Made by a program: the position numbers and the translations under genes. From positions 1-23,249 of IMG/VR virus record IMGVR_UViG_3300032213_001726: a stretch of 23,249 nt of DNA; one strand, 5' to 3'. Positions 2,550-23,055 of this stretch are shown one piece after another (positions within the stretch are counted from its first letter, which is position 1; the number at the start of each line of letters is the position of its first letter). The DNA comes from a virus. The notes beneath the pieces were generated by a model that did not search any database, was not told the DNA's origin, and was given only the letters and a program-made list of their open reading frames with translations.

Positions 2550-3077
2550 ATGAGTCTCAAAGAACTTACCGCAGAAAAACATAAACAAGCCGAATCCACA
2601 CAATTCATGCGAGCTATATTTGCAGGAACATTGCCCATGGATCATTGGATAGATTATACATATCAAAAAATGTTGTTCTATAAAACTATAGAAGGCGCTG
2701 CTGGCATGAATGGCTTATTAACAGACCTTCCGGACATAAACAGAGCATTCAAGTTATTTCAGGACTATCAGTCTATGAACACTGACAACAAAAAATATTC
2801 TTTTAAAAAGTCTGCTGTGGATTATCACAATTATTTGTTAAGCATTAACAAAGATCCAGTCAAAATTATGGCTCACTTGTATGTCTGGCACATGGGGGAT
2901 CTGTACGGCGGGCAAATGATCAAAAGGTTAGTTCCTGGTAGTCATATTGCATTAGAGTTTGAAAACAAGGATCAATTAATTGCTACAATTAGATCAAAAC
3001 TAGATGACAGCATGGCAGATGAAGCTAACGTAGCATTTGATTGGGCAATTAAACTTTTGCAAGAATACGATGTCTGA
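2550..3077 (+). CDS. ho1: Heme oxygenase (biliverdin-forming)
   Basis: A 175-residue all-helical protein. Near the N-terminus LKELTAEKHKQAE carries the proximal heme ligand, His11, in the pattern of HO-1 proteins. HMGDLYGGQM (residues 114-123) matches the distal-helix GDLSGGQ signature that contacts the oxygen. The enzyme opens heme to biliverdin, Fe2+ and CO using reduced ferredoxin or a similar donor. Cyanophages carry such genes for bilin pigments, but no bilin reductase is visible here, so iron release or heme breakdown is an alternative role. It is shorter than typical enzymes (about 210-240 aa). The start has no ribosome binding site. A TTGACT (2518-2523) lies upstream without a clear -10 at normal spacing. 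The gene stands alone between the terminator and the promoter at 3090. Confidence 0.85.
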   Translation: MSLKELTAEKHKQAESTQFMRAIFAGTLPMDHWIDYTYQKMLFYKTIEGAAGMNGLLTDLPDINRAFKLFQDYQSMNTDNKKYSFKKSAVDYHNYLLSINKDPVKIMAHLYVWHMGDLYGGQMIKRLVPGSHIALEFENKDQLIATIRSKLDDSMADEANVAFDWAIKLLQEYDV

Positions 3078-3124: not shown

Positions 3125-4168
3125 ATGAGCCAACCTACTTTTAAATACATTGAAGATTATATAGAGTTTATTGGTGGCCGACGCAGCATTGACGGTAAAA
3201 TTTTTGGATTATTTAACTATGCTCCGGTTCCTATAAACTTGGCAAGGTATGATGTATCTATTATTGATAGTTTGTCCTCGCAAACTTGCGAGTTAAATAA
3301 TCCTTATACAGATAAACAAAGTGCATTGGCAATAAAACTTGTAGACAAGTACAGACGGCAGTTGGCAGGTTTAGGTACTCCGGTCATTGTTCCTGAAAAA
3401 CTTGAGTCATTTAGGTTGGGAATTCGATTAGTTGACCGAACAAAATCTGTATACATAGATGATAATCAGTTTGTGGTTAAATTTCCATATGATACTAAGT
3501 TAATCGACTTATTAAAAAAACAGTCAAGGCAAGGAGAAGGTTCTGTCAGATTCGATTATGACAGAAAAATATGGATATTGGGTATGACTGAATACAACTT
3601 AAATTGGATTATGACTATTTGTCCACAGAATGGATTTTCCATTCACGAGTCCGTTGCATCGCTGTATGAAAAATTGTTATCTGTGGAAAACAATAATTAT
3701 GAAATTTGTCTCAAATTGATCAATGACCAGTTAACATTGGAAAATGCCGAATCCAGCTTATTAGAATATGTGGAAAATATTGGCGGGATGTCAATGAGCA
3801 ACTTGTTAAAGTTAGTTGATGTTAGCGCAGTACTGGGATTTAACGTAGATGAAAATTTAACTGAATACGTTAAGGAGTTGGATAATGAGCATCATCGTAA
3901 ATTTTTAATAAATCGAAAAACATTTTGTAGCAAAGAAAAAATATCAATAGAGCAAGTGTTGGAGTATGCAAGAAAGGTAAATAGATTACCTATTCATGTT
4001 TACGAAAACGGATTGCCAAAAAATAATACAGAAGAAATCATTTATTTAAATCGAGGCGTCGGTCCTGAAGTTTGTCCTAAACTACTAGTGACTACTACCA
4101 GTCTGATGATAGGTAGCAAAAAACAAAGTTGGTTAGCCAATGCTGAAAAGATTATAATTCTAGAATGA
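3125..4168 (+). CDS. UvsW-linked protein with a HARP-like segment
   Basis: A 347-residue protein encoded directly upstream of uvsW, with a 4-base ATGA overlap. Residues about 115-165 read FVVKFPYDTKLIDLLKK, a short gap, then a strand ending RFDYDRKIWIL and a helix. This is the pattern of the HARP domain of SMARCAL1-type annealing helicases, where it binds forked or single-stranded DNA. The C-terminal third is mixed alpha/beta, ending in a hydrophobic strand (EKIIILE), with no ATPase motif. The linkage suggests it works with UvsW on branched DNA, as a domain supplied in trans. The HARP match is by eye and moderate. The remainder is unrecognised. The start is supported by promoter geometry rather than by a ribosome binding site. 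Confidence 0.6.
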   Translation: MSQPTFKYIEDYIEFIGGRRSIDGKIFGLFNYAPVPINLARYDVSIIDSLSSQTCELNNPYTDKQSALAIKLVDKYRRQLAGLGTPVIVPEKLESFRLGIRLVDRTKSVYIDDNQFVVKFPYDTKLIDLLKKQSRQGEGSVRFDYDRKIWILGMTEYNLNWIMTICPQNGFSIHESVASLYEKLLSVENNNYEICLKLINDQLTLENAESSLLEYVENIGGMSMSNLLKLVDVSAVLGFNVDENLTEYVKELDNEHHRKFLINRKTFCSKEKISIEQVLEYARKVNRLPIHVYENGLPKNNTEEIIYLNRGVGPEVCPKLLVTTTSLMIGSKKQSWLANAEKIIILE

Positions 4169-5610
4169 ATCAAGCAAAATTAATTATCCGCGACGAAGTC
4201 AACGTAAAGATAGAGGGACTCGAACTCACTGACCGTAAAAAGTTAGTGGAAAAGTTTAAGTACGAAATTCCTGGAGCAAGATATTTGCCTGCGGTTAGAC
4301 TAGGTCGTTGGGATGGTAAAGTTCCATACTTTAATCTAGGTGGAACTACGTACATCAATTTATTGCCAGATATTCTTCCATATCTTGAAGAACGTGGATA
4401 CGATATCGATATAGATGATGTGCGTGAATACAGCACTACATTAGAATTGGGGCAAGTTGTTGATAATAGTTTCGTTCATAAACAATGGCCCAATGGTGAT
4501 CCAATTATATTGCGCGATTATCAAGTTGAAATTATCAATCGCTTTTTAAAAAATCCGCAGTGTATTCAGGAAGTGGCCACCGGCGCCGGCAAAACTATTA
4601 TGACGGCAGCGTTGTCCGCAAGTGTGCAACATTTGGGCAGAAGTATAGTTGTTGTTCCTAGCAAAAGTTTAGTTACACAGACTGAGGCAGACTATAAAAC
4701 TATGGGACTGGATGTTGGTGTGTTGTTTGGGGACCGTAAAGAATATACTAAACAACATACGATTTGCACGTGGCAAAGTCTGAATGCGCTGGTTAAAAAT
4801 ACAAAGAACTACGAAGCAGATGTAACTATACACGACTTTATTGAAAATGTTGTCTGTGTAATGGTAGACGAAGCACACAGCGCCAAAGCAGATGCATTGA
4901 AGTCTATGTTGACTACAATCTTTGCTCGAGTGCCTATTCGCTGGGGATTAACAGGCACCGTTCCTAAAGAAGATTATGCATATCAAGCATTGAACTGCTG
5001 CATTGGTCCAGTGATAGGACAACTTAGTGCCAGTGAATTACAAGAACAAGGACATTTAAGTAACTGTCATGTAAATGTAATACAAATGGTTGACTATGTT
5101 GAATACAAAGACTATCAACAAGAACTAAAGTATCTATTAGAAACAGATGACCGATTAGACTATATTGCTAATCTTATTAATAAGATCTCTGAAACGGGAA
5201 ATACTCTAGTATTGGTTGACCGGGTAGATCCAGGTAAGCGTTTAACTAGTAAAATAAAAAACGCAGTTTTTGTATCAGGGGCTACTAAATCAAAAGCAAG
5301 AAAAGATGAGTATGATGAATTTGCGATTACTGATGACAAGGTTGCTGTGGCGACTTACGGTGTGGCCGCTGTGGGTATTAATATCCCTAGGATTTTTAAT
5401 TTGGTTCTTGTGGAGTCCGGAAAGAGCTTTACACGAGTTATACAAAGCATTGGGCGAGGCATTAGAAAAGCTGAAGACAAAGACTTCGTCCAAATCTGGG
5501 ACATAACATCAACTTGTAAATTTGCCAAACGACACTTAACTAAGCGTAAACAATTTTACAAAGAAGCAAACTATCCATTTAGTGTAGAGAAAACTGAATG
5601 GCAAGGTTGA
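4165..5610 (+). CDS. uvsW: UvsW-like superfamily 2 DNA/RNA helicase
   Basis: A 481-residue SF2 helicase. In order: an N-terminal substrate-binding region with RLGRWDGKVPYF (residues 45-56) as in T4 UvsW; RDYQ (117-120); Walker A ATGAGKT (138-144); DEAH box VDEAHS (234-239); motif III LTGT (262-265); motif V region TYGVAAVGINIP (397-408); and motif VI QSIGRGIRK (427-435) with the arginine finger. UvsW unwinds D-loops, R-loops and Holliday junctions, and switches T4 from origin-dependent to recombination-dependent replication. The length agrees with T4 UvsW (about 500 aa). It is the second gene of a two-gene unit and ends 31 bases before the next operon. Confidence 0.95.
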   Translation: MNQAKLIIRDEVNVKIEGLELTDRKKLVEKFKYEIPGARYLPAVRLGRWDGKVPYFNLGGTTYINLLPDILPYLEERGYDIDIDDVREYSTTLELGQVVDNSFVHKQWPNGDPIILRDYQVEIINRFLKNPQCIQEVATGAGKTIMTAALSASVQHLGRSIVVVPSKSLVTQTEADYKTMGLDVGVLFGDRKEYTKQHTICTWQSLNALVKNTKNYEADVTIHDFIENVVCVMVDEAHSAKADALKSMLTTIFARVPIRWGLTGTVPKEDYAYQALNCCIGPVIGQLSASELQEQGHLSNCHVNVIQMVDYVEYKDYQQELKYLLETDDRLDYIANLINKISETGNTLVLVDRVDPGKRLTSKIKNAVFVSGATKSKARKDEYDEFAITDDKVAVATYGVAAVGINIPRIFNLVLVESGKSFTRVIQSIGRGIRKAEDKDFVQIWDITSTCKFAKRHLTKRKQFYKEANYPFSVEKTEWQG

Positions 5611-6764: not shown

Positions 6765-7372
6765 AAAATTTAACAGTGTTTGGTGACAGTTGGCCAGCGG
6801 GCGCCGATTTACAAAATCCGAATAACGATGCATTTCCAGCATTACTTGCAAATAAATTAAACTTAAATCTAGTAGATTTAAGTCAACGAGGCACAAGTAT
6901 AGATCATGCCGTTCGTGCTTTTTTAAATACCGACATCACTGACTCTGTGGTTTTATTTTGCATCACGGGTTATGCAAGAACTATGTATCTGGATAGAGAC
7001 TATGCATTTGAAGTACATCCAATGGATCCAGGCATGGAATGGTACTATACTAAACTGTACTCAGACAAATTAGGTAAGCTTAATCGAATTAAAAATTGTT
7101 TACTAGTTCAGGAAATTTGTAAAAATAAAAAAATTCCTGTATACTTTGTATCTAACTGGGATCAACTACCTGATCATAAATTAATAGACAAGACACTATG
7201 GTGTTCCAAAACACTTATTCAAATGACAGGATCAACTCCTATATCTCTGGATAGTGATGTGGACTGGTCTAAAATTAATAGAAAAAATATGATTCGCTAC
7301 TCTAATCACCCCAATGAAGCAGGTCATAAACTAATAGCAGAAGAATTATACACATGGATAAGCTCTCGATAA
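6761..7372 (+). CDS. SGNH/GDSL-like hydrolase
   Basis: A 203-residue protein starting at the ATG in an ATGA overlap. FGDSW (residues 7-11) supplies the GDS block I with candidate nucleophile Ser10. RGTS (43-46) fits the block II glycine. SNHPNEAGH (181-189) is a clear block V with candidate catalytic His183. The block III Asn (GxND) is not obvious, so activity is uncertain. SGNH proteins are esterases, lipases or carbohydrate O-acetyl esterases. In a phage, sugar or lipid deacylation would be the likely use. The protein has no signal peptide and so would act in the cytoplasm or in the particle. It overlaps the next gene by 19 bases. Confidence 0.75.
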   Translation: MKNLTVFGDSWPAGADLQNPNNDAFPALLANKLNLNLVDLSQRGTSIDHAVRAFLNTDITDSVVLFCITGYARTMYLDRDYAFEVHPMDPGMEWYYTKLYSDKLGKLNRIKNCLLVQEICKNKKIPVYFVSNWDQLPDHKLIDKTLWCSKTLIQMTGSTPISLDSDVDWSKINRKNMIRYSNHPNEAGHKLIAEELYTWISSR

Positions 7373-7818
7373 ACAATGAAATGGCTCAACTCGATATGAA
7401 AAATCGAGAATTTTATGATGAGCTCACTGATGAAGAACGTAAAAAATTCAGCACTTACCTAATGATGAAATACAGTGCCAATGTCGAAGGCAGCAGTGAT
7501 CTTCAAGCTTGGTATTTGATGGCTAGTAATGAACGGGTGAATATAAACTTTTTTGATTTTAACAAACACACAAAACTACAATGGTTAATGTGTACATCGG
7601 TAAGTCCTGGCATGGGCAAGCAACGTCATTATTGGTTAAGTAGTAAAAAGAAAGAAGGATCGAATACTAAAATTATTAAATTTTTAAGTAAGCTTTATCC
7701 TGCGTTAAAAGTAAATGACATTGCTGTTATGGCTGATCTGAATACTGAAAAAGAAATTAAGACCATGGCCAAAGAAATGGGAATGAGTGACAGTGAGATT
7801 AAAAAGGAATTAGGTTGA
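7354..7818 (+). CDS. Conserved phage protein of unknown function (154 aa)
   Basis: A 154-residue helical protein starting at an ATG inside the end of the SGNH gene. The family-like core is KNREFYDELTDEERKKFS, then LQAWYLMASNERVNINFFD, and a strand region LQWLMCTSVSPGMGKQRHYW. The C-terminus is a small helical domain (MAKEMGMSDSEIKKELG). I considered the clamp loader small subunit gp62, because this is a replication neighbourhood, but the sequence does not show that family's pattern. It is co-transcribed with the zinc-finger and DnaE-like proteins and may be a replication accessory, by context only. Confidence 0.65.
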   Translation: MDKLSINNEMAQLDMKNREFYDELTDEERKKFSTYLMMKYSANVEGSSDLQAWYLMASNERVNINFFDFNKHTKLQWLMCTSVSPGMGKQRHYWLSSKKKEGSNTKIIKFLSKLYPALKVNDIAVMADLNTEKEIKTMAKEMGMSDSEIKKELG

Positions 7819-8498
7819 GTTTTGTTTGCAAACACTGTAAAAAATCGTACTTAAAAGAAAGTACATTAGTTGCACATTTATGCGAACCTAAACGCAGATG
7901 GCAACAGCAAAATGAAACAGGAGTCCAACTTGGATTCAAATCTTATTTAAAATTTTATGAAGTATCTCAGGGCAGTGCTCGACTAAAAACCTACGAAGAC
8001 TTTGCATCTAGTCCTTATTACAGTGCATTTGTTAAATATGGCAGACATGTAACAGCAATTAAATGTGTCAGCGTAAGTAATTTTACCAATTGGTTATTAA
8101 AAAACAATAAAAAATTAGATAATTGGTGTAAAGAATCGATGTATTTGGAATGGCTGTCTGATCATATGAAAAAAGAAGCAGTACAAGATGCAATAGAGCG
8201 GGCATTAAAAGAAATGCAAGACTATGCAGACGTCGATCCAAAACTGCAAAATAACTTTAATAATTATTTTCGATTGGGTTCTAGTAATCGCATAGTTCAC
8301 CATATTTCAAACGGACGTATTAGTCCCTGGATAGTGTTTAACTGTGCTAGCGGAATCGATTTTCTTAGTTCACTAAACGAGGAACAACTCGCAATGATAC
8401 TGCCATGGATTGATCCCGATTATTGGCAACGTAAGTTTACAGATTACGCAGCAGACACCGAATGGGTTAAAGATATTTTACAAAAGGCAGGACTATGA
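7815..8498 (+). CDS. C2H2/C2HC zinc-finger protein, function unknown
   Basis: A 227-residue protein. The start is TTG at 7815, inside the previous stop (TTGA). It is preceded by AAAAAGGA at 7801-7808, which is a good ribosome binding site, and no in-frame ATG lies near the conserved N-terminus. Residues 5-23 hold C-x2-C-x12-H-x3-C, a single zinc finger. The rest is helical, with conserved-looking segments such as SPYYSAFVKYGRHV and LLKNNKKLDNWC. Similar proteins occur in large marine phages without known function. It directly precedes the DnaE-like gene with an ATGA overlap, so a DNA-linked role is plausible. Confidence 0.7.
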   Translation: MSFVCKHCKKSYLKESTLVAHLCEPKRRWQQQNETGVQLGFKSYLKFYEVSQGSARLKTYEDFASSPYYSAFVKYGRHVTAIKCVSVSNFTNWLLKNNKKLDNWCKESMYLEWLSDHMKKEAVQDAIERALKEMQDYADVDPKLQNNFNNYFRLGSSNRIVHHISNGRISPWIVFNCASGIDFLSSLNEEQLAMILPWIDPDYWQRKFTDYAADTEWVKDILQKAGL

Positions 8499-9103
8499 AA
8501 TTTAAGTCAGATATTGACATTGATTTTGCTAACAGGGATCAGATTCTCAGTTTGCTAAAACATACGTCAGCCAGCATTATCAAAGACGATAAATTAAGTA
8601 AGCATAATACTGGAGTGTACTTTACAGATATCCCTACAGATCCTTATACCGGACAATCTAGTCTTGATTATCAAAAGGCAGAAGACCGAGGATATTTAAA
8701 ATTAGATTTTTTAAATGTTAGTTTGTATCAGCAAGTAAAAAATGAAAGTCACTTAGATCAGTTAATGCAGCAGGAACCAGACTGGAGCAAATTAAATGAT
8801 CCTGCGTTCTGTGGGCAGTTAATTCACATCGGAAATCATTATAATACGTTGACTAAAATGCCTGAACCTATTAACAGCATTCCCAGAATGGCCATGTTTT
8901 TAAGTGTTATTCGCCCTGCTAAACGACATTTAATCGGATTACCATGGGCAGAAGTTGCTAAAACTGTGTTCGAAAAACCCCAAGATGACGGATACTATTT
9001 TAAAAAAGCACATGCAATTTCATATGCTCATTTGGTAGTAGTTCATATGAATTTGTTGACTAATGTAGAAGATAATTTTAAACGACTCGTCGAACAAGTG
9101 TAA
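8495..9103 (+). CDS. Miniature DnaE-like (C-family DNA polymerase) protein
   Basis: A 202-residue protein, against about 1,160 for bacterial DnaE. It nevertheless keeps, in the same order, several conserved blocks of the DnaE palm and fingers. SDIDIDF (residues 5-11) matches PDFDVDF with its metal-binding aspartates. SKHNTGV (35-41) matches GKHAGGV. GYLKLDFLNV (66-75) matches GLVKFDFLGL, whose third catalytic Asp corresponds to Asp71. SVIRPA (137-142) matches the ALFRPG block. YFKKAHAISYA (168-178) matches FNKSHSAAYA. The PHP, thumb, clamp-binding and C-terminal domains are absent. This is inferred by eye from known family motifs and looks strong because five blocks are collinear. Whether it polymerises DNA is unknown. 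It could be a catalytic core, a nucleotidyltransferase or a decoy. It starts in an ATGA overlap with the zinc-finger gene, and its 3' end overlaps the convergent minus-strand gene. Confidence 0.75.
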   Translation: MKFKSDIDIDFANRDQILSLLKHTSASIIKDDKLSKHNTGVYFTDIPTDPYTGQSSLDYQKAEDRGYLKLDFLNVSLYQQVKNESHLDQLMQQEPDWSKLNDPAFCGQLIHIGNHYNTLTKMPEPINSIPRMAMFLSVIRPAKRHLIGLPWAEVAKTVFEKPQDDGYYFKKAHAISYAHLVVVHMNLLTNVEDNFKRLVEQV

Positions 9104-9452
9104 TACTTCTTCTTTTTGATCTTTTTTGTGCAGATTCTTTAAGACTCAACGCTGGCCCGTATTTTAATTCTACATCTTTGCTATTAAAAGTTTTAAGAGT
9201 GGGCCTAAACACACCCCAATCTGACTTTAGAAAGATATTAATAGGAACCATCCTATTACTTTCCCACCACCATACTTCTCCTAATTCTAGGTACAAACGT
9301 TTTTGATCGGGTGTTTTAAGTAGTCCGAAATCATAGACGCTGGTAATCACATCGTCTAAGTTCTGAATAATTCCTATATATTCATTGCCCCCGTAGGTAA
9401 TGAAACTTAAAAAAGGATACTGGTCTAATAATATTTGGTAAGATAAATCCAC
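9078..9452 (-). CDS. Conserved phage protein of unknown function, only minus-strand gene
   Basis: A 124-residue protein starting at GTG (complement of 9450-9452). It reads MDLSYQILLDQYPFLSFITYGGNEYIGI, then a WWWESNRMVPINIFLK core and a basic tail (KRSKRRSITLVRRVV). The tail is similar to that of a widespread family in T4-like marine phages with no known role. The basic C-terminus suggests nucleic acid binding. There is no ribosome binding site. An AATAAATA box (complement of 9458-9465) lies five bases upstream. It overlaps the end of the DnaE-like gene by 26 bases tail to tail and diverges from the fibre gene. Confidence 0.75.
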   Translation of the reverse strand: MDLSYQILLDQYPFLSFITYGGNEYIGIIQNLDDVITSVYDFGLLKTPDQKRLYLELGEVWWWESNRMVPINIFLKSDWGVFRPTLKTFNSKDVELKYGPALSLKESAQKRSKRRSITLVRRVV

Positions 9453-10062: not shown

Positions 10063-11046
10063 ATGAGTTTAGAAAGCCTATTAGGAATCCCTTGCCCAAC
10101 AGGCCCACAAGGACCACAAGGCCCTCGCGGTCCAATCGGGAATGCAGGAATTCAAGGACCACAAGGACCACAAGGACCCACAGGGGTAGTAGGTTTAAGA
10201 GGGGAACAAGGATCCACTGGACCGCAAGGACCGCAAGGATCACAGGGTCCGCAAGGGCCTACTGGCCCACAAGGACCCAGTGGTGTAAGTAATGTAGCTG
10301 GGCCGCAAGGACCACAAGGTCCCATTGGGAATACAGGACCACAAGGCCCAACTGGTGCTGGAGTTCAAGGCCCGCAAGGACCAAGTGGAGATACAGGACC
10401 ACAAGGACCTACAGGCCCACAAGGACCACAAGGACCACAAGGCCCTACTGGCCCAGTGGGATTTACTGGTAGTGCAGGTCCACAAGGTCCACAAGGTCCT
10501 CAAGGTCCTCAAGGTCCGACTGGTGCTGGAGTTCAAGGCCCGCAAGGACCACAAGGCCCTGCAGGTACTAGCAACATGCCTGGGCCACAAGGACCACAAG
10601 GCCCTGGGTCGGAAATTATTGTGCAAGATGAAGGAACTACAATTACTAGTAATGTTTCTACATTAAACTTTGTGGGGGATGGCGTTACTGCAACTAATGT
10701 TGCCAATGTAGTAACGGTAACTATTCCAGGATCAATTGATACGTTATATTCTATAGGTAATATTTCTGGAACATTTGCTCCTAATAGGTCTTATGCGTCA
10801 GTGCAACATGCAACTTTAATCGGAAATGTAACTTTGTCTACACCGACCAATATGATACTCGGACAAAGTTTAACATTAATTTTCACTCAAGATGCCACCG
10901 GAAATCGTTTATTAACTCCTAATTTAAATTATAAATTTGCTGGAAATTTTAAAACATTGAGCACCACTGCTAATAGTATCGATATGTTAAACATGTTTTA
11001 TGATGGCTCTGTCTACTACGTTACTTTAACCACTGGGTATCAATAA
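10063..11046 (+). CDS. Collagen-like tail fibre protein
   Basis: A 327-residue protein with AAGGA at 10051-10055 upstream of the ATG. Residues about 12-182 are Gly-X-Y triplets, mostly GPQGPQGPT, which form a trimeric collagen-type triple helix. Short breaks (GVSNVAG, GTSNMPG) divide it. From about residue 184 a beta-rich head follows ([12 protein letters not shown], then a strand-rich domain ending [11 protein letters not shown]) of the type found at phage fibre tips. The role is a long thin fibre that contacts the host surface. The stop overlaps the next start (TAATG). Confidence 0.9.
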
Positions 11047-11840: not shown

Positions 11841-14333
11841 ATGAGCAAAATAGTCCAATGGAAGCGTGGTAACGCTAATGTAAGTTCTACCTATACAGGA
11901 CCAGAAGGTGAGCTTACAATTAATACAACTGACTGGACCTTAAATATTCATGACGGCACCACCCCGGGGGGCCGCCCTGCTAGTTTTAGTCTCGGAAATC
12001 TTGAGGTTTCTAATCAAACAATACTCGGTACAACAGCTAATGCTAATATTGTTATCGATCCCGATGGGTCTGGAATTGTTGTATTAAACAACGGAGTAAC
12101 CACTAGTGGAAATGTAACCGCGTCGTATTTTGTTGGCAATGGTTCGTTATTAACTGGTATTAACAGTAATTACGGAAATGCCAATGTCGCAGCATTTTTA
12201 CCTACATATAGTGGAACTATATCTGCAAATAGAATGAATGTGGGAAATATATTAGTAACATCGAATGTGAATGTAGGAAATATATTAATAACATCAAACG
12301 TTGCTAGGTCATTTTTCTTTTCTCAAAACAAAGACGCACAGATAGTAGCTTCTGACGGAGTTCGTAATTCATCAATTTATCTGTGGGCCAACAACGGCCG
12401 TATGAGTTTTAACACTATTTCCAACGCATTTGATTTTAATTTCAATGGACAACTTAGTGCCACAGATTTTACCGCAAGTAAAAGTAGTTCAGTTGGTTAT
12501 TCATTCTATACACCAGGTGAAGGACTATCTGGGTTTGTACATGTAAACGGTCCTCCGTCTTACATAAAAATTACTCACGATAATATAGACTATACAAAAT
12601 TTTATGCAAACTATACTACCCAAACTATTGGTAATTTAGTTATTTCTTCAAATGCAAACGTATTTGGCAGTTTTCCAACAGCATTTGTACAAGTTTATTC
12701 CAATGTTAATTCTTATAGTCAGATAGTTCATCAAAATTTAAATTCAGGAAATTTATCTAGCTCTGATTTTGTTGGTACAGCTGATAATGGTACAGATTCA
12801 ACACATTATGTAGATTTGGGAATTGCTAGTAGTACTTATAATTTTCCTGGTTTTGAGGTAATCAAACCCAACGACGTTTATTTGTTGGCTGTTGGAAATA
12901 ATGTCACCGGCCCAGGTAGCGTAAGCCGTGGTAATTTAGTTATTGGGTCAACTACTGGAAATATTAATTTCTTCGTTGGTGCACCGCAAGATGCAAATGT
13001 AATTACACAAATTAATTCTACAGGATTTATTCCCGGAGCCAATGTTACTTACAGTTTAGGTAGTGCAACTAGACAATGGAAAGACTTGTGGGTCAGTAAC
13101 AACACTATCTATTTAGGCGGAGTCTCGTTGGGAGTGGATTCCAGTGGTAATCTGACTGTTAACGGTAATGTAGTTTCTGGTGGTGGAGGCGGCGGAGCCG
13201 GACCACAAGGCCCCACTGGCCCAATTGGCAACACAGGACCACAAGGCCCCACTGGCCCAATTGGCAACACAGGACCACAAGGACCACGAGGTCCACAGGG
13301 ACCACAAGGTCCACAAGGACCTACCGGACCACAAGGTCCACAGGGACCAATCGGTCCACAGGGACCACAGGGACCTACCGGACCACAAGGACCTACCGGT
13401 ACTTTTAGTGGAACTCTAACTGCAAACATAAATGGCAACGGATTTAGTATCAGTAATGTGTCGTCTATTTCTTCTACTGGTAATATAACAGCAACAAATT
13501 TCAATGGAAATATTTCAGGGAATGTTACAGGAAGTGATCCAAATGTAACCTTAGTGGCTGATACTTTTAGCTATGTATTTGATAACACTAGCAACGTTTC
13601 ATTTCCTGGTAATCTAAGTGTTGTTGGTAATGTGGATGCAGGATTTGTTAGAGTCTCCAGTGGCATTGTGTCATCGCTGGCAGTAAGTCCTGCTCCTGTT
13701 ATTTCAGGATTTAGTTCTATTTCTACAACTGGTACTCCGGGGAATATCACAGCGTCGGGTAACCTGATTGCTAGTCGCGATGCAATTATAACTGGCAACG
13801 TAACTGCGGGCAATATTAACGTAACAGGTAATATTGTTGACACAGGCTCATTGAGTATCATCACAGGCAGCAACGGCAATATTGCGTTGATTCCTAATGG
13901 CACAGGCATTGTTACAGCTTCAAATGCATTTACTGCTGTTGGCAACATCACAGGTGGTAACATTATTACCGCAGGCAATATAACAGGCAATACAGGCGGA
14001 TTCGCTATAGGTTATAGAGATATTCCTCAGGTTGTATTCACCAGTAACGCTACATTAGCGTTAACTGATGCAGGCAAACATTACTTTAGTTCTAATAGCG
14101 CCAACGTTATTACAGTACCAAATAATACCACAGTAAGCTTCAATATAGGAACCGCAATCAGCATTATCCAGCAAGGTACTGCAAACTTAACTGTGACTCC
14201 TGGCTCAGGTGTAACTATGTACTTGGCTGGAAACAGTACATCAGCATCCAGGACATTGGGTAACTTTGGTATGGCCACCCTAATGAAAGTGGGCACAGAT
14301 ACGTGGTTTATTAACGGCACAGGAGTTAACTAA
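11841..14333 (+). CDS. Large tail fibre with collagen-like stalk
   Basis: An 830-residue fibre. GGAAG at 11830-11834 precedes the ATG. The N-terminus ([19 protein letters not shown], then [13 protein letters not shown]) is a known phage fibre entry domain. Residues about 60-440 are beta-structured, with repeated GNI/SNV motifs that suggest stacked triple-beta repeats, including [12 protein letters not shown] repeated in tandem near residues 130-150. A poly-glycine linker leads to a collagen-like [10 protein letters not shown] stretch (about 453-520), then more GNI/GNV repeats. A C-terminal domain (from about residue 720, [16 protein letters not shown] to FINGTGVN) is common at fibre tips of marine phages. 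The stop overlaps the next start (TAATG). Confidence 0.9.
13201..13272 (+). repeat. 36-bp perfect tandem repeat in fibre collagen region
   Basis: Two identical 36-bp units (13201-13236 and 13237-13272) begin GACCACAAGGCCCCACTGGC, and a third partial copy follows. Each unit codes for the 12 residues [12 protein letters not shown]. Identity at the third codon positions points to recent duplication, a route to changing fibre length. Confidence 0.9.
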
Positions 14334-15525: not shown

Positions 15526-16578
15526 ATGTTCAACTCTGTACAGGATTATACCCTAAGCATACTGCCCGCTAAGAAGAAACGTAGCCAAAGTGGTTGGTTA
15601 AGTTTCAATGCAGTCTGCTGCCACCATAATGGCGATAGTGCAGATACCCGAGGTCGCGGCGGAGTCATTACAAATCCAGATGGTGGGGTGTCTTACCATT
15701 GCTTTAATTGTGGATTTAAAACTGGTTACCAACCTGGCCGACCGCTGAGTTTCAAATATCGAAAATTTCTCAATTGGTTAGGTGCAGATGTCAACGAAAT
15801 ACAACGGTTAGTGGTTGAGGCACTGAGAATCAAAGATCTAGTAGACCCTCGAGATGTCAAACCTGTTGTTGAAGAAGAAATAACATTTGTTGCTCGTAAT
15901 CTACCAACAGAAGCACATACTTTTTGGTCCTTGGCAGAATTTTATAAATTGGCAGACTATAACAGAACTCCTAAACAATTTTCAGATGCTGTAAATTATG
16001 TTATAGACAGAAAAATTAATTTAAATCGTTATGATTTTTATTGGACTCCTGAAGTAGAATATAAATTATCACACCGTGTCATTATTCCTTTTAAATACAA
16101 AGGTGAAATAGTAGGTTATACAGCAAGAGCATCAAACGATGATGTCAAACCCAAATACCACAGCGACCACCCAGGCCATTTTGTTTTTAATTTAGATGAA
16201 CAAAAGTCGGACAGTAAATTTGTCATTGTCTGCGAAGGTCCATTTGATGCTATGAGCGTAGACGGGGTAAGTACACAGACCAATGATATCAGTGAGCAGC
16301 AGGCAGAACTAATAGAGTCATTGGGGCGAGAAGTAATAGTAGTCCCAGATTTTGACAAACACATTAATAAGCAAAACAAAGAAGTGTGGCCCGGACAACA
16401 AACTATTAATCGTGCAATAGAATACGGATGGAGTGTTAGTTTTCCTGTTTGGAAAGACACTGCAAAAGATATTAATCATGCAGTTCAATTGTATGGAAAA
16501 CTGTTTGTTATGAAATCTATTCTGGATGCCAAAGAATCCAATCCATTAAAAATTAAATTGTTAGCTAATAAAATATGA
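15526..16578 (+). CDS. DNA primase, TOPRIM type (gp61-like)
   Basis: A 350-residue primase. The N-terminal zinc ribbon has a cluster at Cys31/Cys32, His33/His34 and a second pair Cys59-x2-Cys62 (YHCFNCGFKTG). The TOPRIM domain follows: VCEGPFDAMS with Glu237, then VVPDFDK with Asp275 and Asp277 for metal binding, and KDTAKDINHA (310-319). It makes RNA primers for lagging-strand synthesis as part of a primosome with the helicase encoded next, as T4 gp61 does with gp41. The length matches gp61 (about 340 aa). It overlaps the helicase start by ATGA. The ATG coincides with the predicted transcription start. Confidence 0.92.
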   Translation: MFNSVQDYTLSILPAKKKRSQSGWLSFNAVCCHHNGDSADTRGRGGVITNPDGGVSYHCFNCGFKTGYQPGRPLSFKYRKFLNWLGADVNEIQRLVVEALRIKDLVDPRDVKPVVEEEITFVARNLPTEAHTFWSLAEFYKLADYNRTPKQFSDAVNYVIDRKINLNRYDFYWTPEVEYKLSHRVIIPFKYKGEIVGYTARASNDDVKPKYHSDHPGHFVFNLDEQKSDSKFVIVCEGPFDAMSVDGVSTQTNDISEQQAELIESLGREVIVVPDFDKHINKQNKEVWPGQQTINRAIEYGWSVSFPVWKDTAKDINHAVQLYGKLFVMKSILDAKESNPLKIKLLANKI

Positions 16579-18020
16579 CCAAAGACTATAGTGTTGATCT
16601 CCAAAAATTATTTTTAGAAATGATGCAACAGAATCCTGAAAGTTATGTCAGAGTTCAAAACATTTATAATCCAGAGAACTTTGATAGAAGTCTCCGTGAC
16701 GCCGCACGTTTTATTAAAGAACATGTGGACACGCATAAGATCATGCCCACTCCCGAACAGATCAAAGCAGTGGCAGGCACAGACCTAAAACCAATTCCAG
16801 ATCTCGGAGAAAATCATTATGATTGGTTCATGGTTGAATTTGAAGGATTTACTAAAAAATATGAACTAGAACGTGCAGTGCTCAAAGCCGCAGACATGAT
16901 TGAAAAAGGAGACTTTGACCCCATTGAAAAGATTATCAAAGATGCTGTACAGATCAGTCTGACCAAAGACATGGGCACAGAGTATTTTGCAGATCCCCGT
17001 GCTCGATTAATGAAAATCAAAAGCAACAACGGGCAAATTAGCACAGGCTGGCCCACCATGGACAAGAGATTGTTTGGTGGTATGAATCGTGGAGAGTTGA
17101 ATATTTTTGCCGGAGGCTCGGGTTCGGGTAAGAGTCTATTCATGCAAAACATTGCATTGAACTGGGTGGTTGCTGGATTGAACGGCGTGTTTTTAACATT
17201 AGAACTCAGTGAAGAACTATGTGCCATGCGTATTGACAGCATGGCAGCAAATGTCAGTACTAGAGAGATTTTTAAAGAAATAGATACTGTGGAATTAAAG
17301 ATTGGCATGTTGGGCAAAAAATCTGGCAGTCTGCGTATCAAATACATGCCAGCGCAGAGCAACGTGAATCAGATTCGTGCATATCTCAAAGAGTTAGAAG
17401 TACAGACTGGCCGTAAAACAGATTTTATTATGGTAGACTATTTGGATCTCGTTATGCCGGTCAGTGCCAAAGTCAGTCCCAACGATTTGTTTGTCAAGGA
17501 CAAGTATGTTTCGGAAGAGTTGCGAAATTTAGCCAAAGAATTCAGTGTATTAATGATCACTGCCAGTCAGTTAAATAGAAGTGCAGTTGAGGAGATTGAA
17601 TTTGATCACAGTCATATCAGTGGCGGTATTAGTAAGATTAATACAGCAGACAATGTATTTGGAATCTTTACATCCAGAGCTATGCGTGAGCGTGGTCGCT
17701 ATCAGATCCAGTTGATGAAAACTCGTAGCAGTAGTGGTGTGGGCATGAAAGTAGACTTAGACTATGACATCGATACTCTGCGTATTACAGATCCGGGTGA
17801 GGAGGCACAGGGTACTCCGGGCACGCTAAAACCTCAAGTTGGCAGTATTATGAACAGTATTAAAACAAGATCTACCAGTAGTGACGATGAAGGTTCTCCA
17901 CGGAAGTTTGAAAGAGCCCAAGGAACTCCTGCATGGGAAAAGCCCATGAGTGGCGGAGACGGCGAAGTACAAAGCGCCAAACTTAAACAAATGTTGGCAG
18001 GATTAAAGAAAGCAGAATGA
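16575..18020 (+). CDS. Replicative DNA helicase, DnaB/gp41-like
   Basis: A 481-residue RecA-fold hexameric helicase. The N-terminal helical domain spans about residues 1-150. Motifs are Walker A GGSGSGKS (180-187), the H1a region FLTLELSEE (206-214), Walker B FIMVDYLDL (284-292), H3 ITASQLNR (328-335), and the H4/arginine-finger loop MKTRSSSGVG (381-390). It unwinds DNA 5' to 3' on the lagging strand and recruits the primase. The C-terminal 70 or so residues are polar and low complexity (Gly, Ser, Pro), ending in a helix (AKLKQMLAGLKKAE), which may bind the primase or a loader. The stop overlaps the radical SAM start by ATGA, so they share a transcript. Confidence 0.93.
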   Translation: MTKDYSVDLQKLFLEMMQQNPESYVRVQNIYNPENFDRSLRDAARFIKEHVDTHKIMPTPEQIKAVAGTDLKPIPDLGENHYDWFMVEFEGFTKKYELERAVLKAADMIEKGDFDPIEKIIKDAVQISLTKDMGTEYFADPRARLMKIKSNNGQISTGWPTMDKRLFGGMNRGELNIFAGGSGSGKSLFMQNIALNWVVAGLNGVFLTLELSEELCAMRIDSMAANVSTREIFKEIDTVELKIGMLGKKSGSLRIKYMPAQSNVNQIRAYLKELEVQTGRKTDFIMVDYLDLVMPVSAKVSPNDLFVKDKYVSEELRNLAKEFSVLMITASQLNRSAVEEIEFDHSHISGGISKINTADNVFGIFTSRAMRERGRYQIQLMKTRSSSGVGMKVDLDYDIDTLRITDPGEEAQGTPGTLKPQVGSIMNSIKTRSTSSDDEGSPRKFERAQGTPAWEKPMSGGDGEVQSAKLKQMLAGLKKAE

Positions 18021-19120
18021 GCAACAATTTTTGTAGATTCTTGAGCAACGGGTTAGCTCTGTGGAACGATACTTCGAATAATGAGGTATCTATTGCACCT
18101 TGCTGCCATTTTAAAAATAGACAACTTGTGAATTTATCAATTGATGGAAGTTTGTCCAATGTTCGAGAAGAATTAAAACAAATATCCGATTGGACAGATG
18201 ATTGTTTACATTGTAAACGACTTGAAACAGCAGGCATTCAAAGTCTTAGACAAACATCATTTGATTGGATACCCGACGTTACTAATAATAGCATCCATCA
18301 ACTAGACTTGAGGCTCGACATTAACTGCAATGCTGCTTGTGTTATATGCGACAATTCTAGTAGTACATTGTGGATTAAAGAACATAATAAGTTTTTTAAT
18401 AAAACAATTCCAATTAATACAATTTCTCCAGAATTTAAAATTAAGAAAATTGTGGATTCTATAAATCTAGAATCATTGAATTATATTAAATTTTATGGCG
18501 GAGAACCATTGTTTACAGACGCACATCTTCAACTGTTGCGTCAAATTAAAAATCCTGAAAACATTACATTACAATATACAACGAATGGATCGATATATCC
18601 AAAAGAAGAAGTATTAGAGGTATGGATCAAATTTAAACTAGTACTGTTTTGTGTATCGGTTGACGGCATCGATCAGCAATTTAATTATATTCGTTGGCCG
18701 CTTAAGTGGGACAAACTTAAAAATAACTTATTCAAACTCAGAAACAATGCCCCTGTTAATGTTATGTTTCGATTTGAATATACTGTAAATTTTTTAAATG
18801 CATTTTACTTCAAAGAATTCGAAGAGTGGGTCAATGAACATTTTTCAATTAATCGATTAGGCGATTCAGTAGAAATTAATATACATCCATATTATGGGAT
18901 TGTATGGAATATAGAAAAAATCACAGATCAGTTGTATGATCGAATTATTAAAAAATACGGCAAAGATGACAAACTGGCTAAGTTAGTGAGTCAGTTTAAT
19001 CGAAATGAAGATTTAAAAAATTGGAGAACATTTGTTAACCAATGGGACCCTATCAGAGAATATAAATGGCAAGACGCTTTTCCTGATCTAATAGATTTAT
19101 ATGAACAAAGTAGTAATTGA
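18017..19120 (+). CDS. Twitch-type radical SAM protein
   Basis: A 367-residue protein. The radical SAM cluster is Cys104-x3-Cys108-x2-Cys111 (DINCNAACVICDN), followed by FYGGEPL (159-165), the SAM-binding GGE motif, and later strands such as CVSVDGID. An extra cysteine set near the N-terminus (APCCHF at 27-32 and CLHC at 63-66) suggests an auxiliary iron-sulfur cluster placed before the core, as in twitch-domain proteins of marine phages. The reaction is unknown. Relatives with auxiliary clusters modify peptides or carbohydrate derivatives. It starts inside the end of the helicase gene and overlaps the next gene by 20 bases. Confidence 0.85.
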   Translation: MSNNFCRFLSNGLALWNDTSNNEVSIAPCCHFKNRQLVNLSIDGSLSNVREELKQISDWTDDCLHCKRLETAGIQSLRQTSFDWIPDVTNNSIHQLDLRLDINCNAACVICDNSSSTLWIKEHNKFFNKTIPINTISPEFKIKKIVDSINLESLNYIKFYGGEPLFTDAHLQLLRQIKNPENITLQYTTNGSIYPKEEVLEVWIKFKLVLFCVSVDGIDQQFNYIRWPLKWDKLKNNLFKLRNNAPVNVMFRFEYTVNFLNAFYFKEFEEWVNEHFSINRLGDSVEINIHPYYGIVWNIEKITDQLYDRIIKKYGKDDKLAKLVSQFNRNEDLKNWRTFVNQWDPIREYKWQDAFPDLIDLYEQSSN

Positions 19121-21757: not shown

Positions 21758-21796
21758 ATGACGCAATTTTTAAATAAACAATTAAGTAAATTATGA
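21758..21796 (+). CDS. 12-aa leader ORF coupled to the nucleotidyltransferase gene
   Basis: ATG at 21758 opens MTQFLNKQLSKL, and the stop TGA (21794-21796) overlaps the ATG of the next gene (ATGA at 21793). The strong Shine-Dalgarno sequence at 21740-21749 precedes it, while the downstream gene lacks one. Translational coupling is likely. Whether the peptide itself matters is unknown. Confidence 0.4.
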   Translation: MTQFLNKQLSKL

Positions 21797-23055
21797 AACT
21801 ATTTGAAATCCGCCAAACACCGCCAAGGTGGTTAATATTAGAAGGAGCCGAGGGTAAGAACTTACATCTGGAGCACATTGAAGATCTTGTATTCAACGAG
21901 GGATACATGGGGGCCCAACGTGCCTTAAGCTATATGGAAAGTCTAAGGCAAATGTTTGCTGACGGAAAAGGCACTACTACCAAAGTCACTGTTAAATGGG
22001 ACGGCGCCCCTGCAATTATTTGTGGTATAGATCCTGTGGATGGCAAATTTTTTGTAGGTACAAAAAGTGTTTTTAGTAAAGATTCTAAAGCTTGTAAAAC
22101 ACAAAAAGACATTACAAAATTTTACGGAGAACAAGAAGGCTTGGCCACTAAATTATCAGTGGCATTAAAATATCTACCAAAACTAGGAATTGGTAATGTA
22201 CTACAGGGGGACTTAATGTTTACTCCTGGTGATCTTCAAACAGGTGTCATCGACAACGAAGAAGTTTATTTTTTTACACCGAATACTATAACATACGCAG
22301 TCCCTGTGGCCAGTGAACTGGGTAGCCGAATCGCAAGATCTAAATTGGGTATAATTTTTCACACAGCATACGAAGGTTCGAGCTTGCCTGAAATGTCTGC
22401 TAGGTTTGGCGCAGAAGTAACCGGGTTAAATCGAACAAATGACGTTTGGTTTGATGATGCCACATACAAAGACTATACAGGCATAGCCAGCTTAACTCCA
22501 GCAGAGAATAGTCAAATTTCCAGGACTATCGGCCAAGCAGCTATTACACTTAAAAAAATTAATGCAAACAAGTTTGACATTATTTTAGGCAATCCTGAAT
22601 TTGCAAATTACATTAAACCTTTTATTAATAACATGGTCAGAGCCGGCGAACAAGTAGGAGAACCTATAGCTTTTTTAAATAGATTTCTAGCTTATTACAA
22701 AGGCAAACAAGAAACTGAAATAGCTAAATTACGTGGTGGCCCAGAGAGTGCTGCTGCCAAAGCAAGAGTTGCCAAAATAGAGCAAAATGAAAAATTCATA
22801 GAAGATAATAGTAATACTTTATTGGGAATTCTTGCAATTTATAAAAGAATAATCGAACTTAAATTAATGATACTTGCAAAAATACAAAAAGTCGAAAGCA
22901 TTGGTACTTTTATTAAAACTGACGATGGCTATAAAGTAACTGCACCTGAAGGGTTTGTTGCTATAGGTCATGACGGCGGAGCAGTAAAACTAGTTGATAG
23001 ATTAGAATTTAGCAAACAGAATTTTTCAGCAACAAAAGCTTGGAAAAAAAGTTAA
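21793..23055 (+). CDS. KxDG nucleotidyltransferase/ligase-like protein
   Basis: A 420-residue protein. VTVKWDGAPAI (66-75) is a nucleotidyltransferase motif I, with Lys68 as candidate AMP-accepting lysine. KFFVGTKSVFSK (85-96) and LQGDLMF (137-143) fit motifs Ia/III. Near the C-terminus EGFVAI (386-391) and GAVKLVDR (396-403) resemble motifs IV and V. About 240 residues, including a helical, Lys/Glu-rich stretch (about 300-370), separate motif III from IV, far more than in compact ligases. I recall similar large proteins of unknown function in T4-like cyanophages. It may seal or nucleotidylate RNA or DNA. The N-terminus MKLFEIRQ, then LILE|G, could be a capsid-targeting peptide, which would place the protein in the virion. 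It lacks its own ribosome binding site. Confidence 0.75.
   Translation: MKLFEIRQTPPRWLILEGAEGKNLHLEHIEDLVFNEGYMGAQRALSYMESLRQMFADGKGTTTKVTVKWDGAPAIICGIDPVDGKFFVGTKSVFSKDSKACKTQKDITKFYGEQEGLATKLSVALKYLPKLGIGNVLQGDLMFTPGDLQTGVIDNEEVYFFTPNTITYAVPVASELGSRIARSKLGIIFHTAYEGSSLPEMSARFGAEVTGLNRTNDVWFDDATYKDYTGIASLTPAENSQISRTIGQAAITLKKINANKFDIILGNPEFANYIKPFINNMVRAGEQVGEPIAFLNRFLAYYKGKQETEIAKLRGGPESAAAKARVAKIEQNEKFIEDNSNTLLGILAIYKRIIELKLMILAKIQKVESIGTFIKTDDGYKVTAPEGFVAIGHDGGAVKLVDRLEFSKQNFSATKAWKKS

Follow-up and report, generated by a model that had tools for sequence, protein, structure and literature searches.

The DNA analyzed here (the window, 23,249 nucleotides of IMG/VR record IMGVR_UViG_3300032213_001726) encodes the C-terminal, Mg-binding unit of a split Pol III alpha, hereafter PalmC. 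For jumbo phages, Iyer et al. (Viruses 2021, PMC7824862) predicted a minimal Pol III alpha in split form, and the window protein is a further member of this kind: in the parts of that article available to us, the description matches in family (phrog_11778, with phrog_11127 for the other half, hereafter PalmN), in the two distant genes, and in the B-family polymerase alongside. Unlike the members described there, this one comes from an uncultured phage. Taken as a whole, the data are probably best explained by a two-chain mini Pol III alpha that adds dNTPs in short patches. Its most secure part, argued from sequences and structural models, is that PalmN and PalmC very probably constitute a C-family polymerase carried on two chains. 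ORF analysis placed the PalmC gene, with an ATG start, and its main blocks as follows.

8495..9103, + strand: PalmC, 202 aa, putative C-terminal catalytic half of a split mini C-family polymerase (phrog_11778, residue map, invariants, AlphaFold and VIA-align)
8495..8531, + strand: DxDxD block with the predicted metal-binding Asp6 and Asp8 and the conserved Asp10, the chain starting at the conserved cut (aligned with E. coli 400-406, PDFDVDF)
8692..8715, + strand: GYLKLDFL block with Lys69 and the third catalytic Asp71, E. coli K553 and D555 (alignment, invariants)
8999..9028, + strand: FKKAHAISYA block, in which His173 matches the E. coli steric gate H760 and Tyr177 matches Y764 (alignment, invariants; H760 role from PMC8485763)

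The sequence-only reading of this DNA had claimed ordered C-family motifs in a 202-residue protein. Both the ORF and the motifs were confirmed: all five C-family (DnaE/PolC) blocks were found in the correct order, an order that none of 200,000 shuffled versions of the protein reproduced, and a chance match was thereby ruled out. In the alignment, S5-D6-I-D8-I-D10-F of PalmC corresponds to P400-D401-F-D403-V-D405-F of E. coli DnaE (reference sequence from NC_000913; the comparison set was E. coli DnaE plus phage DnaE). The full residue map equates D6 with D401, D8 with D403, D10 with D405, H37 with H511, K69 with K553, D71 with D555, R140-P141 with R639-P640, H173 with H760, and Y177 with Y764. 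The active-site residues of E. coli DnaE are D401, D403 and D555, and H760 is a modelled steric gate against ribonucleotides (PMC8485763). Hence the earlier assignment of Asp71 to the active site was right, whereas its pair Asp8/Asp10 has to be shifted to Asp6/Asp8; the triad D6, D8, D71 is invariant.

PalmC matched phrog_11778 ("DNA polymerase", E 3.2e-63); by single sequence, it was only weakly connected with full Pol III alpha (phrog_405, E 7.8e-4). No Pfam match was obtained with the single sequence, nor any match in a solved-structure search, and a solved-structure profile search gave one weak, unrelated match (E 0.12). The family search across phages proposed in the sequence-only reading retrieved relatives in 63 of 50,697 records of a phage collection (tblastn), and relatives were confirmed in at least 595 IMG/VR stretches. 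The phages concerned are mostly jumbo phages (RaK2, 121Q, CBB/GAP32, PA5oct, Atu_ph07, SCTP-2 and XacN1 kinds); two 141-kb Alishewanella phages also encode PalmC. Conservation of the Asp positions, which the same reading had wished to see verified, held without exception. In a 33-member alignment covering the whole range, D6, D8, D10, H37, G40, P47, K69 and D71 were invariant, and so were L73, W97, I139, R140, P141, K143, H173 and Y177. DxDxD was kept in 266/266 PalmC sequences, among which the rare motif departures (KIDCL, MRP, KQSH, etc.) altered neighbouring residues, never the Asp, Arg or His. As read from sequence, the PalmC active site is intact in all 266, and since the Asp, Arg and His residues do not vary, the predicted site for two metals and the dNTP sugar is kept. 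The PalmC gene is also under strong purifying selection, with a dN/dS of ~0.07-0.09 against its nearest relatives; it is therefore a real, constrained gene.

Structure prediction pointed the same way. An AlphaFold2 model of PalmC (91 sequences) reached pLDDT 95.7 and pTM 0.84. Its best eight Foldseek matches were all C-family polymerases, as were those of PalmN, with probabilities of at most 0.99 and every E-value above 0.001. VIA-align superimposed the PalmC model on PolC 3f2b (Z 9.7, rmsd 3.5, 193 residues aligned), on Taq Pol III alpha 3e0d (Z 9.5) and on residues 398-829 of E. coli 5fku (194 residues, Z 7.0), and the first unrelated structure appeared at Z 3.5. Coverage by C-family structures was 193-197 residues, nearly the whole chain, and at Z 9.7 the model has the C-family palm and fingers fold. 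The fold check suggested in the sequence-only reading thus gave good matches to C-family polymerases only, and neither of the two outcomes named there as refuting was obtained. What Iyer et al. describe as a minimal stand-alone Mg-binding part is found here as a 202-aa chain with the Asp triad and a fold on 398-829.

The PalmC chain lacks the GRGS motif of C-family polymerases, which in relatives lies on a chain of its own, PalmN. When nine phage records and a 338-kb IMG/VR contig were searched with PF07733, each of these ten relatives proved to have a second small gene, scoring above the curated cut-off and located apart from the PalmC gene. The two genes are far apart in relatives: in RaK2, PalmN lies at 148852-149367 and PalmC at 115183-115767. 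PalmN has ~171 aa, belongs to phrog_11127 and bears a GxGRGSS motif, GRG[SC] being retained in 103/103 PalmN sequences. The window, a 23-kb fragment, had no PalmN; the distant NTP-binding gene of Iyer et al. was present in all large relatives tested. PalmC as a stand-alone mini-polymerase was therefore ruled out, the GRGS half being a separate gene in every one of them. Of the earlier idea of a "stripped-down C-family enzyme", the C-family part stands, since PalmC fits only these polymerases well, but not its stand-alone character. As a separate observation, a GroES-like protein, recognized by eye, lies close downstream of PalmN in two loci (L110:842-1258 and L106:744-1079, both on the - strand).

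The two halves largely travel together, although the counts are non-independent because the genomes share descent: among the matches listed, PalmN was present in 61 of the 63 PalmC phage records. One exception is an unverified 109-kb phage record, whose kin are ~350 kb; the other is Slickus01, for which no PalmN was among the matches listed and whose sister Slicko01 has it. All ten IMG/VR contigs of at least 134 kb that were chosen for PalmC (G001, G036, G039, G041-G047) also carry PalmN. The reverse case was met once, in a 289-kb contig, possibly incomplete, with PalmN and no PalmC detected.

Where is the catalytic domain cut? PalmN sequences typically end in VVWGVGRGSSVASYVLYLIGVH...EFLK, which corresponds to a stretch of E. 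coli DnaE after which DnaE runs PERVSM-PDFDVDF, where PalmC starts. In 103/103 sequences, the PalmN terminus lies 35-37 residues past GxGRGS, and PalmC starts 1-17 residues, most often 5, ahead of DxDxD; the corresponding spacing in E. coli DnaE is 42. The cut therefore loses almost nothing and leaves no room for intein halves, so that a split intein at this place was ruled out. Profile comparison matched PalmN to DnaE 320-393 with Prob 97.7 and a pairwise E of 2e-12, and PalmC to DnaE 508-641 with Prob 96.3 and a pairwise E of 2e-9. PalmN of a relative was modelled by AlphaFold2 with pLDDT 87.4 and pTM 0.66, the two proteins being modelled as separate chains. In VIA-align, PalmN residues 65-171 aligned to C-family chains only, on E. 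coli 275-393, with a best Z of 10.4 (8.8 against 2hqa, 8.9 against 5fku 279-393). Thus, the independently predicted halves, PalmN on 275-393 and PalmC on 398-829, abut at 393|398 of E. coli DnaE.

Two rival readings can be weighed at this point. The loss of large C-family parts and a gene in two pieces might suggest a decaying remnant of a former full-length DnaE. This possibility is negligible: it is refuted by the low dN/dS and by the recurrence of the same two pieces, with identical ends, across phages that infect many hosts and across hundreds of metagenomic contigs. It had also been proposed that the protein is a decoy touching host Pol III and, more broadly, an inactive decoy or regulator could bind host Pol III or the phage replisome. 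Small size, lost DNA-binding parts and another polymerase in the same genomes would suit such a role. Yet metal- and dNTP-binding positions are invariant in the 266 PalmC sequences, GRG[SC] is kept in 103/103 PalmN, and a decoy has no need of an intact active site spread over two genes. Full retention of catalytic and dNTP-contacting residues and a co-conserved other half hence disfavour the decoy, which we regard as very improbable.

PalmC shares with DnaE and PolC the motif order, the fold over 193-197 residues, and the metal and steric-gate residues. It differs from them by lacking the PHP domain, the thumb, the greater part of the index finger and every C-terminal domain, by a catalytic domain distributed on two chains, and by a length of ~200 versus 1160 residues. 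Indeed, the DxD-to-KH distance is 29 residues in PalmC versus 108 in E. coli and the RP-to-FxKxH distance 28 versus ~116, which indicates that PalmC has lost the thumb and the larger part of the index finger. A PHP gene was found in 0/10 relatives, and the B-family polymerase (PF00136) in 10/10 PalmC relatives tested, a combination that Iyer et al. associate with the split enzyme and that a 23-kb window is too short to show. PalmC is carried by large T4-like phages that have a normal polymerase besides. Searching the relatives with PF17657 (fingers) for a third C-family fragment that could supply thumb or index finger found just PalmC itself, apart from one weak sub-threshold match in phage CBB (E 0.019).

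DNA binding is thus the weak point of the two-chain model. One may ask whether the two chains are an active nucleotidyltransferase other than a template-directed DNA polymerase, adding template-independently to ends or using another substrate. The parts that hold template and primer are missing, no gene for them was found in the relatives searched, and the PalmN/PalmC core looks like a bare nucleotidyltransferase. On the other hand, R140-P141, H173 and Y177 of the fingers are invariant, H173 is the counterpart of the deoxyribose-reading residue of E. coli, needless for a non-DNA substrate, and PalmC sits among replication genes. We consider this alternative unlikely, albeit less so than a decoy.

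Our preferred reading remains a two-chain DNA polymerase. PalmC would supply the metal-binding Asp triad together with a shortened fingers segment that carries the steric-gate His, and the GxGRGSS loop of PalmN is expected to bind the dNTP triphosphate. We infer that the two proteins bind each other, at the cut equivalent to E. coli 393|398, and that the complex is active. The joined enzyme would add deoxynucleotides to DNA 3' ends in short patches, during repair, gap filling or recombination-linked primer extension, and bulk replication would be left to the phage B-family polymerase. The intact steric-gate His argues for dNTPs as substrate and the lost thumb and index finger for non-processive synthesis; the gene context favours a function in repair or in gap filling linked to recombination. 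Taken by itself, the repair or gap-filling role is a tentative proposal that may well not hold.

The gene context in question was examined in the window and in relatives. The window has the following genes around PalmC.

4165..5610, + strand: UvsW-like DNA helicase (phrog_16, E 9.4e-77)
7354..7818, + strand: 154-aa protein, phrog_11758, conserved neighbour
7815..8498, + strand: zinc-finger protein, 227 aa, phrog_11058 (E 5.5e-54), candidate third subunit
9078..9452, - strand: 124-aa protein, phrog_11637, conserved neighbour, convergent with PalmC and overlapping its 3' end
15526..16578, + strand: DNA primase (phrog_47, E 1.5e-36)
16575..18020, + strand: DnaB-like replicative helicase (phrog_19, E 1.9e-71)

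PalmC thus lies near uvsW, primase and helicase genes in the window, and amid uvsX, uvsW, primase and DnaB-type helicase genes in relatives. Its closest neighbours recur: the 154-aa gene is upstream in 218/239 loci, and the convergent 124-aa gene, present in 58 phage records, is downstream in 198/205. The zinc-finger gene is upstream of PalmC in 226/239 loci, 90 of which show an ATGA overlap; in the window too, the PalmC start overlaps the stop of the zinc-finger gene in this manner. The zinc-finger gene is often translationally coupled to PalmC. Its product has an invariant CxxC...HxC zinc-binding pattern, and sequence search found no solved relative. By tblastn, the gene occurred in 61 of the 50,697 phage records, nearly the distribution of PalmC (63 records), and all 60 among the matches listed were PalmC records. 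In XacN1 and RAS14, it lies ~3 kb from PalmN and ~10 kb from PalmC. A joint function with PalmC is only suggested by these data, as clade-core genes would distribute similarly. A three-part polymerase, in which the zinc-finger protein would replace the lost thumb and hold DNA for PalmN and PalmC, is accordingly a speculative and rather doubtful extension of the two-chain reading; the co-distributed gene is nonetheless a specific candidate for the DNA-binding part that the pair lacks.

We also noted other genes in the window, all on the + strand: an SPFH/Band 7 protein (PF01145, E 5.3e-17) at 1229-2023; a heme oxygenase (PF01126, E 4.4e-16) at 2550-3077, likely a host-derived metabolic gene; two likely tail-fibre proteins with collagen-like GPQGPQGP repeats at 10063-11046 and 11841-14333; a radical SAM protein (PF04055, E 4.9e-10) at 18017-19120, followed by 264-aa and 259-aa proteins without Pfam match; and a DUF6267 protein (PF19782, E 1.8e-109) at 21793-23055, whose KWDGAPA resembles, by eye, the KxDG motif of ATP-dependent ligases.

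To the description of Iyer et al., the present analysis adds the exact cut, a site intact at residue level, a wider distribution and the zinc-finger association; the residue-level cut, the invariant set and the zinc-finger association were not found in the available parts of the article (PMC7824862). In the portion of the literature covered, we found no experimental study of the activity of a split mini polymerase. If the pair is active, it would be a catalytic core of ~370 residues on two chains, far below the size of bacterial C-family polymerases, and would reveal how small a portion of the bacterial replicase suffices for nucleotidyl transfer. It would also provide T4-like phages with a second polymerase, unrelated to the first, and open to testing the idea of Iyer et al. 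that minimal forms model ancestral versions of the bacterial replicase.

Cyanobacterial intein-split DnaE is likewise a C-family polymerase made from two genes (split DnaE inteins: PMC3919608). Unlike it, the PalmN and PalmC chains end exactly at the cut. From what is generally known of cyanobacterial DnaE, its cut lies elsewhere than that between PalmN and PalmC.

Other C-family arrangements were observed along the way. The 150-kb IMG/VR contig G039 has, besides the split pair, a single-chain 559-aa C-family polymerase without PHP (L301:1504-3183). In two further PalmC contigs, G048 (83456-83704) and G050 (822-1034), the PalmN-like match falls within an ORF of 563 aa and of 420 aa, respectively; these may be of the same kind. 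In Tenacibaculum phage Larrie (L389:2146-5726), a full-size C-family polymerase is encoded as adjacent 515-aa and 676-aa ORFs, with a break near the same place as the PalmN/PalmC cut; the first ORF runs on past FLNSGRMG by ~50 extra residues, perhaps left over from an intein. Lastly, in Gordonia phage Terapin (L385:2142-5774), a 319-aa "Pol III alpha" gene lies upstream of an 811-aa palm-bearing C-family chain, the polymerase being split at a different place from PalmN/PalmC.
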